Positions 55,211-58,114 of a stretch of 64,000 bases of DNA are shown in pieces (the first letter of the stretch is position 1; the number at the start of each line of letters is the position of its first letter). The notes beneath the pieces were generated by a model that was not told the origin of the DNA, did not search any database, and worked only from the letters and a program-made list of their open reading frames with translations. The position numbers and the translations under genes were made by a program. The DNA is taken from assembly GCA_031292275.1 (NCBI GenBank), contig JARLHL010000023.1, positions 1-64,000 on the forward strand, written 5' to 3'. Source of the DNA: Desulfocapsaceae bacterium. GTDB lineage: Bacteria; Desulfobacterota; Desulfobulbia; Desulfobulbales; Desulfocapsaceae.

Positions 55211-55276
55211 ATGTCGGCAGGATTATCCGGACCTCTCTTCTCATGTCCGCCTTTCCGCCGTCGCACAGGGAAAAAA

Positions 55277-57076
55277 ATGGAGCAGGAAAAAATTCGTAAT
55301 GTGGCGATCATCGCCCATGTCGATCATGGAAAAACCACCTTGGTTGATCAGCTGTTCAGGCAGTCCGGGATGTTCCGCGACAATCAGACGATGACGGAAC
55401 GGCTGATGGATTCCATGGATCTGGAAAGGGAACGGGGAATTACCATCACCGCCAAGAACGGATCGTACAACTACAAGGATTATTGGATTAACATCATCGA
55501 CACCCCCGGCCATGCCGACTTCGGCGGCCAGGTGGAGCGGGTCCTGCGCATGGCGGACGGCGCCCTCCTTCTGGTGGATGCCCAGGAAGGGCCCATGCCC
55601 CAGACCTATTTCGTCCTGAAAAAGGCCCTGGAGAACCACCTGCCGGTAATCGTCGTCATCAACAAGATCGACAAGCCGGCGGCGCGCTGCGCCTGGGCCG
55701 TCGACCAGGTTTTCGACCTCTTCGTCAAGCTGAACGCCCCCGACGACGTCCTGGATTTTCCCATTGTCTACACCTCGGCCAAGGCCGGCTTCTCTCTACT
55801 TGATCCTTCTGATATCGTTAACAAAAGTGCGGGGATGGATCACGTCTCCCAAAAGATCGTCGACCATATTCCGGCCCCCAGAGGCTCGGCTGACGCCCCC
55901 CTGCAGATGCAGGTGGGCACCATCGACTATTCGCCCTACCTGGGCCGCCTGGGGATCGGCAAGGTAGTCAACGGCACTATGTCCATCAATCAGCCGGTAG
56001 TGGTTGCCAGAAGGGACGGCACGGTGCGCCCGGTCCGGATTTCCAAGCTCTTCCGCTTTGTCTGCGACGGCAAGGAATCGGTGGAATCGGCCTCGGTCGG
56101 CGAGATCGTGGCCGTGGCCGGCATGGACGATGTCACCGTCGGCGTCACCTTTACCGACCCTCTCGATCCGCGCCCCCTGCCGCTGGTCCCCATCGACCCG
56201 CCGACCATATCGATGAACTTCATCCCCAACGATTCGCCCTTCGCCGGCAAGGAGGGGAAATTCGTCACCTCCCGGCATATCGAAGAGCGCCTGAACCGGG
56301 AGACCCTGGCCGACGTGGCGCTGCAGTTCCAGCCGCTCACCGACGCCGTGGGATTCAAGGTCTCCGGCCGCGGCGAGCTGCATCTGTCCATCTTAATCGA
56401 GAAGATGCGCCGCGAGGGCTACGAGCTGCAGGTCACCCGCCCCCAGGTCATCATGCGCGAAGAAAACGGCAAAATGCTGGAACCCTATGAGCGATTGACC
56501 GTCGATGTGGACGAGAAGTATCAGGGGGCCGTCATCGAAAAGCTGGGCAGGCTCAAAGGCCAGATGGAGGAAATGAATACCGAAAACGGCATGATGCGGA
56601 TGGTCTTCAAAATCCCCACCCGCGGGCTTTTGGGCTATCGTTCCGAATTCATGACCGACACGAAAGGGATGGGCCTGATGAACTACGTGTTCTGTGAATA
56701 CGGCCCTTACGCAGGCGATATTGTCAGCAGGGTGAACGGCGTGCTGGTGGTAAAAGAGACCTGTACAGCGGTCGCCTACGCCCTGTTCAATCTCCAGGAG
56801 CGCGGCAAGCTCTTTATCCATCCCGGCGCGCCGCTCTATCCGGGCCAGATCATCGGCGAACACAGCCGTCCCGTCGACCTGGTGGTCAACCCCGCCAAGG
56901 GCAAGAAGCTCACCAACATGCGGGCCTCGGGCTCCGATGAGGCCGTTATTCTCGTCCCGCCTTTAGATATGACCCTCGAGGACTGCATCGCCTATATCAA
57001 CGATGAGGAACTAGTCGAGGTCACGCCCGAATCCATTCGTCTCAGGAAGAGGGCCGGGATAAAAATCCGAGGGTAG
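55277..57076 (+). CDS. typA: Translational GTPase TypA/BipA
   Basis: 599 residues. G1 is [10 protein letters not shown], the switch RERGITI, G3 [10 protein letters not shown] and G4 NKIDK. The BipA-specific C-terminal part ([21 protein letters not shown]) follows. It is a ribosome-associated GTPase involved in stress and 50S assembly. ATG 55277 gives the family start [15 protein letters not shown]; the earlier frame from 55211 overlaps the repeat. Confidence 0.97.
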
Positions 57077-57081
57077 CTGCG

Positions 57082-57246
57082 ATGGCAGATCTTCTTATCG
57101 TCATCCTCTCCGGGGCGGTCGGACTGGCGACATTCGGTTTCATCGCCAAAAAATTCGGTGGCGACTGCCTCCCCTGAGCGATGCTCTACGGGTCCATAGG
57201 CATGGGCCTTCTGACCTTCTGGCTGCTGCGGCTGCTCCTGCCCTGA
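57082..57246 (+). CDS. Candidate small CxxU membrane selenoprotein (in-frame UGA)
   Basis: ATG 57082 with GAGGG upstream, overlapping the typA stop region. The frame reads 31 codons, then TGA at 57175-57177, then 22 more codons to TGA at 57244-57246. Residues 3-21 and 37-54 are hydrophobic. The UGA falls in C29-L-P-U32, a CxxU redox pattern between the two helices. After the UGA, GGTCCAT (57191-57197) pairs with ATGGGCC (57202-57208) around AGGC, a position and loop G compatible with a bacterial SECIS. Without selenocysteine decoding it would be a 31-residue peptide or a broken gene. Confidence 0.5.
57191..57208 (+). promoter_or_regulatory. SECIS-like hairpin after the in-frame UGA
   Basis: A seven-pair stem with one G-U (GGTCCAT/ATGGGCC) and a four-base loop AGGC. 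The loop lies about 20 bases 3' of the UGA, within the usual distance for bacterial SECIS elements. Confidence 0.4.
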
Positions 57247-57250
57247 GTAC

Positions 57251-57685
57251 TCAGGAGATCCGTCCGTATCTGCCGGAGAAATAATCGGCCAGGATCAGGG
57301 CGTGATCGAAGGCCAGATCCGGCAGGTTGTCACGGGAAAAGAGTCCGGCCTCTCCCGCATCGTCCCCTGCCTGCGGCACTCCGCAGGCCCGGCCGGTGAA
57401 GACCGTCGAAGCCGTATGCTGCCGGGCATCCCGGTCCGGGTTCGAATAGGTATGAAACTGCTCCAGGCCGCTTACCGCAAGCCCGGTCTCTTCTTTGGCC
57501 TCCCGCAGGGCCGCGTCCTCGAAGGATTCTCCATAGTCGACAAATCCGCCAGGCAGCGCCCAGCCGAAGGGCGGGTTCTTGCGTTTTATCAGTACAATCC
57601 GGCCATTGATATCGATGATGATATCGACGGTGGGAGTCGGGTTGCGATGCTGGACGATCTCTTTATTACAGTGCGGGCATTTCAT
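57251..57685 (-). CDS. Nudix hydrolase with N-terminal zinc-ribbon start
   Basis: 144 residues. The Nudix box is complete ([18 protein letters not shown] through KEETGL). The N-terminal [16 protein letters not shown] resembles a zinc-ribbon half (CPHC). ATG 57685 has AGAGGA upstream; the frame extending to 57802 is not conserved. It probably hydrolyses a nucleoside-diphosphate-linked compound of the ADP-ribose type. It is convergent with the CxxU gene. Confidence 0.9.
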
Positions 57686-58114
57686 TGTATCCTCTCTTCC
57701 TGCGCTCTGCGGCACGGCGTGAGCCGGGCCATCTTCCGCCGCCCACCCTTCCCTTGGCCCTGGGCCTGGCATCGGGGGAAGCTTACGGCAGTCTTGCTCC
57801 ATTCTTCACCTAAAACCTCACTCCTGTCAAGAGGGGAATCCTCTTTGATAACACCTTTCTATCACACCTCGGTTTACTACAGACAGGCGCACTCAAACGG
57901 ATACAAATTTCCGCCTTGGCCGGGATCCGTATTACTGCTTGTGTTTGTGTTCCTCCTATGGTAAAGCCTAACTTGCAAGGCGGGGAAACGGACCAAACTG
58001 TCTCTGCCCAGCAGCATGATAACACCAGGATCTACAACCGGAATCGATTCAATACCGCCATGCCGAACGCCCCGCCGGCCCATGTCGGCCTGCATGCGTA
58101 AAAGGAAAAACCCC
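57686..58114. other. Divergent spacer between Nudix and membrane-protein genes
   Basis: About 430 bases with no supported gene. Several short frames overlap on both strands but have no motifs. Promoters for both flanking genes should lie here. Confidence 0.4.

Follow-up and report, generated by a model that had tools for sequence, protein, structure and literature searches.

In DsbB, a CxxC motif lies where the N-terminus of a transmembrane helix meets the membrane surface. Here we describe a candidate selenoprotein gene with a similar layout, found in a 64,000-nucleotide (nt) stretch of DNA from a Desulfocapsaceae bacterium (contig JARLHL010000023.1, positions 1 to 64,000, assembly GCA_031292275.1), the whole of which we call the window. 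Like DsbB/VKOR, its product would carry a C-x-x-C/U pair where a transmembrane helix begins. In contrast to DsbB/VKOR, it would have two helices instead of four, a loop predicted to be cytoplasmic instead of periplasmic, and selenocysteine (Sec, U) instead of cysteine (Cys), and neither profile searches (Pfam, NCBIfam) nor a PDB search detected homology between them. Four independent lines of evidence (purifying selection on both sides of the UGA, the insertion-sequence hairpin, Cys relatives and the Sec machinery) support Sec at this codon and identify the gene as that of a genuine selenoprotein. We consider it probable that the product is a two-helix membrane hairpin with a Cys-x-Pro-Sec redox couple at the membrane surface.

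The bacterial selenoprotein families listed so far share with this gene an in-frame UGA, a bacterial selenocysteine insertion sequence (bSECIS) within the published limits, Cys homologues, a full Sec machinery and a CxxU-type motif (PMC13188914). They differ from the new family in that its members have ~53 residues, are almost wholly membrane-embedded and have neither a thioredoxin-like fold nor a Pfam/NCBIfam match. The Sec-containing MerT-like mercuric transport protein (PF02411) is likewise small, located in the membrane and marked by a C/SxxU motif, but the new family does not match its profile, differs in length and sequence, and lacks mer genes among those neighbours that could be identified. 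Glutathione peroxidase and peroxiredoxin selenoenzymes may have their chemistry in common with the putative activity of the new family (attack on a peroxide by a selenolate, followed by resolution through a thiol), but they are not homologous to it and the new family lacks their thioredoxin fold.

Scanning 46 members against Pfam-A and NCBIfam release 20 returned only scattered, weak and unrelated matches (best E-value 0.001), and the PDB search found no relative of the family. By name, domain and motif, we did not recognize it among the 119 prokaryotic selenoprotein families tabulated in 2026 (PMC13188914), and by name it is not among the nine new families of deep-Sep (PMC12013277). The family was thus not found in the catalogues and review compared (open-access main texts), and relative to these it is new. 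The deep-Sep study analysed the genomes of Desulfosediminicola ganghwensis and Desulfolithobacter dissulfuricans; a candidate passes its filter only if the top hits include Sec homologues already known or two or more Cys homologues, and its authors state that selenoproteins for which Cys homologues are lacking may be discarded (PMC12013277).

Conservation of the frame through the UGA codon

The gene has 54 codons, with the in-frame UGA at codon 32 and a terminal TGA at 57244-57246. With the internal TGA read as U, positions 57082-57243 translate as MADLLIVILSGAVGLATFGFIAKKFGGDCLPUAMLYGSIGMGLLTFWLLRLLLP. A preliminary description of the locus had proposed a gene hidden by its UGA, and without recoding the frame indeed gives only a 31-residue open reading frame (ORF). 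It had also described an ORF with a ribosome site behind typA that stops 4 nt before a convergent Nudix gene, a single in-frame TGA within C29-L-P-U32 and two hydrophobic segments. The sequence and Pfam agree with this arrangement, the UGA falls at the codon named, and the two-segment layout is conserved across the family (hydropathy of 75 genes).

The same description held that the frame extends past the UGA, and among the matches listed the homologues do continue beyond it with exactly one in-frame TGA. A six-frame search of 58 relatives returned homologues in ~45 genomes, each convincing match having exactly one TGA. For wider searches, we used a profile of 29 members (A1) and a profile and alignment of 46 rows comprising diverse members (A2). 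A1 matched 212 of the 258 genomes of the window's own class, including at least one Cys form (G050), and every U-form match among those listed had one TGA at the same codon. A2 matched 54 of 247 genomes (E < 0.001, one TGA each) in a second class (that of G296), which we infer to be Desulfovibrionia. Sampling 395 genomes evenly across the phylum gave no convincing member outside the two classes. Judged by these matches, the UGA-containing gene is conserved in well over 200 bacteria of the sulfate-reducing type. Named loci with the gene include Desulfobulbaceae, Desulfocapsaceae, and Desulfocapsa and its relatives, and two single-contig genomes (G015 and G120) both carry it.

Family members are 51-58 residues long. 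Cys29, Sec32, Tyr36 and Gly42 are invariant in the 46 members of A2, Pro31 and Gly40 nearly so, and the approximate family pattern is (K/R)(K/R)-x-x-G-x-D-C-x-P-U-x-x-x-Y-G-S-x-G-x-G. Two matches were set aside. One (G259, with one TAA) was rejected as a chance match with a broken frame and no C-x-x-U, and another (G045), which ends at the UGA and whose frame diverges beyond it, was left uncounted. Separately, one locus recorded as archaeal (L042, MCBF01000001.1, Candidatus Altiarchaeales archaeon IMC4) matches a contig of Desulfocapsa (L041) with 100% identity across 6,619 bp, which marks this stretch as bacterial DNA in a misassigned record.

The frame downstream of the UGA, on which the earlier proposal depended, is unchanged in the homologues and under purifying selection. 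In 19 independent close pairs, the ratio of nonsynonymous to synonymous differences (pN/pS) was 0.236 upstream of the UGA and 0.234 downstream of it, compared with 0.97 and 1.77 in the other two frames of the downstream part. Differences at codon positions 1, 2 and 3 numbered 47, 22 and 101 in the close pairs.

Selenocysteine machinery and the bSECIS hairpin

The window's genome, which had been singled out for a check of its sel genes, encodes selA, selB, tRNA-Sec (selC, anticodon TCA) and selD. The computational results thus show that the SelB and tRNA-Sec needed to decode UGA codon 32 as Sec are available, and that an in-gene bSECIS lies at the right distance for directing them. The genome has two selD genes (G000:C2:38365-39288 and G000:C64:33414-34343), one with an in-frame TGA (the Sec form) and one without. 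Genus g49 (G121-G125) lacks the family gene together with SelA and any SelB scoring above the cut-off, an apparent loss of Sec use.

Homologues with Cys at residue 32, a further expectation of the preliminary description, were also found. In genus g19 of family f2, full-length relatives have Cys exactly where other members have U, reading CPAC in G050 (L119) and CPMC in G037 (L121). These Cys forms sit upstream of an IF-2B/MtnA-type gene, a location they share with U forms in sister families.

The hairpin of the window (GGGUCCAU-AGGC-AUGGGCCU) has an 8-bp stem and a 4-nt loop with G as its second base. It starts 12 nt and its loop 20 nt past the UGA, and its energy is -10.1 kcal/mol. A SECIS-like hairpin had been proposed at 57191-57208; the hairpin and its usual distance from the UGA stand, whereas its extent is slightly longer (57190-57209). 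Even with up to three mismatches allowed, the 20-mer does not recur in the window. A bSECIS has been defined by a G in the first two loop positions, a loop of 3-9 nt lying 16-37 nt from the UGA, a stem of at least 4 bp and an energy of -7.5 kcal/mol or lower (PMC13188914). A bSECIS search placed the window hairpin within these limits, together with 74% of 105 genes, compared with 15% of synonymous shuffles. The mean hairpin energy of the 105 genes was -8.9 kcal/mol versus -3.9 in the synonymous shuffles.

The wider hairpin region folded as a single sequence no better than shuffles (z 0.17), and an Rfam search near the gene returned no relevant match. Because the energy of the window hairpin is unremarkable for its region, the case for a SECIS rests on comparison across relatives: in the window sequence alone the hairpin could be due to chance, and compared across the relatives' sequences it is not. 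The eight-pair stem forms in 89% of cells (75 unique genes), compared with 80% in column shuffles (maximum 83% in 2000 shuffles). The third positions of the Gly37 and Gly42 codons, which are synonymous sites, can pair with each other in 47 of 61 genes (24 combine GGC with GGG and 20 combine GGA with GGU), where permutation gives 24.5 expected and a maximum of 38 in 10,000. Coupling at the protein level between residues 39 and 41 (Ile39-Met41 and Val39-Thr41) tracks base pairs of the same stem. In 25 sister pairs, all seven double changes preserve the pair; with partners slid by 1-3 nt, there are 0-1 double changes. In several lineages (L084, L085, L088, L092, L094 and L096), the register of the hairpin is shifted relative to most relatives (GGUAUG-GGUCU-CAUAUC, with the loop 27 nt past the UGA), which indicates that the element moved inside the same coding frame.

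Membrane layout and gene neighbourhood

The best 17-residue Kyte-Doolittle means are 2.5 and 1.8 for the two hydrophobic segments and -1.0 for the loop. Lysine and arginine average 2.3 in the 12 residues before U, versus 0.6-0.7 at either end. These values strongly suggest that the product, with its ~53 residues, forms a membrane hairpin of two helices, in which a basic (K/R)(K/R) loop ends in C-x-P-U at the start of helix 2. The features of the locus are collected in Table 1.

Table 1. Coordinates of the selenoprotein gene, its elements and its flanking genes in the window
Feature	Position	Strand	Basis
54-codon selenoprotein gene	57082-57246	+	Class-wide homologues with the same UGA
GAGGG ribosome-binding site, overlapping the typA end, 8 nt 5' of the ATG	57069-57073	+	Direct sequence reading
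C-L-P-U motif (Cys29, Sec32; U codon TGA 57175-57177)	57166-57177	+	Cys and U invariant in 46-row alignment
bSECIS hairpin, 8-bp stem, apical loop AGGC 57198-57201	57190-57209	+	Compensatory changes; synonymous-shuffle control
Hydrophobic segment 1 (residues 3-21), putative transmembrane helix 1	57088-57144	+	Hydropathy, 75 genes
Hydrophobic segment 2 after Sec, conserved Y36, S38, G40 and G42; putative transmembrane helix 2	57178-57240	+	Alignment, hydropathy
typA/bipA, upstream, ending with TAG at 57076; 5-nt gap to the selenoprotein start	55211-57076	+	ORF; Pfam
Nudix hydrolase gene, convergent, ending 4 nt past the selenoprotein stop	57251-57802	-	ORF; Pfam

The surroundings of the gene follow lineage. 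In families f1 and f12 it usually lies shortly behind typA, and in most same-class families outside these two it precedes an mtnA-type gene (we take this member of the IF-2B-type Pfam family to be mtnA). Neighbours in the second class are varied and include engA/dnaX, cmk and an ion-channel-like gene (names assigned by eye). In genus g108 (L098, L144-L147), a rubredoxin gene (PF00301) ends right where the family gene starts in all five genomes examined, which suggests that the two form an operon. The upstream divergent neighbour in one g319 genome is an AhpC-type peroxiredoxin.

In genus g311 (L135, L137, L140 and L141), a second two-helix ORF of ~62 residues lies ~30 nt upstream of the family gene. 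It ends in GSGRTGWP (GKGRTGWP in L140), its loop has no Cys or Sec, and it is possibly a partner or a degenerate paralogue. We also considered a tRNA upstream of the g311 genes but found none, and a plasmid search gave chance matches only.

Proposed activity and competing explanations

We infer redox activity of the C-x-P-U motif from the motif itself and from the rubredoxin neighbour in one genus. By the positive-inside rule the loop would face the cytoplasm, and Cys29 and Sec32 would form a selenol/thiol-selenenylsulfide couple at the membrane surface. The selenolate would be activated at the helix N-terminus and resolved by the Cys. The protein, probably as an oligomer, would reduce a membrane-proximal oxidant (for instance, a hydroperoxide or a disulfide/persulfide) with electrons from a cytosolic carrier, which in one genus may be the rubredoxin encoded directly upstream. 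Since rubredoxin carries single electrons, it would be a chemically unusual donor, and we treat it as a lead coming from genus g108 only.

Several results weigh against a redox hairpin of this kind. An outlier (G257, L122) has lost the first Cys of C-x-P-U and kept the UGA (SSGRPU), which means that not every member has a strict Cys/Sec couple. Some genomes with Sec machinery are without the family gene, for example genomes of genus g8 that have SelB, so that absence of the gene is not strictly tied to absence of the Sec machinery. Some members (L082, L083, L066 and L091) are without a standard bSECIS. A family-wide operon partner was sought and none was found, the neighbours differing by lineage (typA, mtnA, engA/dnaX, cmk and rubredoxin). 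AlphaFold2, run on a 12-row alignment, gave a poor, uninformative model with one long helix and no hairpin (predicted local distance difference test score 69, predicted template modelling score 0.35).

A genuine selenoprotein might instead use C-x-P-U to bind a metal or metalloid (Hg, Cu, Se or As), in which case it would be a MerF/MerT-type small transporter or chaperone and not a redox enzyme. The small two-helix layout and the vicinal thiol and selenol at the membrane surface would suit such a role, and known selenoproteins include the MerT-like family and a Cu/Zn exporter (NF033936; PMC13188914). We nevertheless regard it as unlikely, given that PF02411 and all other Pfam/NCBIfam transporter profiles failed to match and that the neighbours identified include no metal-resistance genes. 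The second cysteine pair characteristic of MerF is also lacking.

Somewhat less likely still is a structural subunit or regulator, a hairpin that joins a larger membrane complex and uses Sec as a sensor or disulfide anchor and not as a catalyst. The small-residue pattern of helix 2 (GxG and SxxxG) suggests helix packing, and the similar-sized two-helix ORF that precedes the gene in genus g311 would be in keeping with a complex. Against this, no conserved large partner gene adjoins the family gene, and Sec is costly and normally catalytic.

It is very improbable that the UGA acts mainly as a stop, with a 31-residue peptide as the product and readthrough serving as a selenium-sensing switch or being merely incidental. 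In the rest of the genome UGA is used as an ordinary stop, and the gene itself terminates with TGA, but pN/pS downstream of codon 32 equals that upstream, Y36, S38, G40 and G42 are invariant in the 29-row alignment, and sister taxa replace U by Cys and not by another kind of sense codon. Chance, that is, an open frame beyond a stop together with an accidental hairpin, has a negligible probability and, on the comparative data, is already refuted: the hairpin region of the single window folds no better than its shuffles, but the position of the UGA, the frame and the length are kept in well over 200 genomes and base changes are compensatory.

Returning to the redox hairpin, we tentatively suggest, as a step that is rather unlikely to hold in full, that the family may be the founder of a new selenoenzyme class. 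The enzyme would be a selenol reductase of anaerobes, working autonomously as a two-helix membrane protein and clearing lipid- or membrane-borne oxidants via a cytosolic carrier (e.g. rubredoxin), in which Sec would be near-universal and ancestral and Cys a rare exception.

The prokaryotic selenoproteome gains a family that homology-based searches are built to miss, because its members have ~53 residues, nearly all of them contain Sec and Cys relatives are rare. This suggests that more tiny membrane selenoproteins remain. As Sec has been kept near-universally in one class, the function of a bare Cys-x-Pro-Sec membrane hairpin is testable in cultured bacteria.
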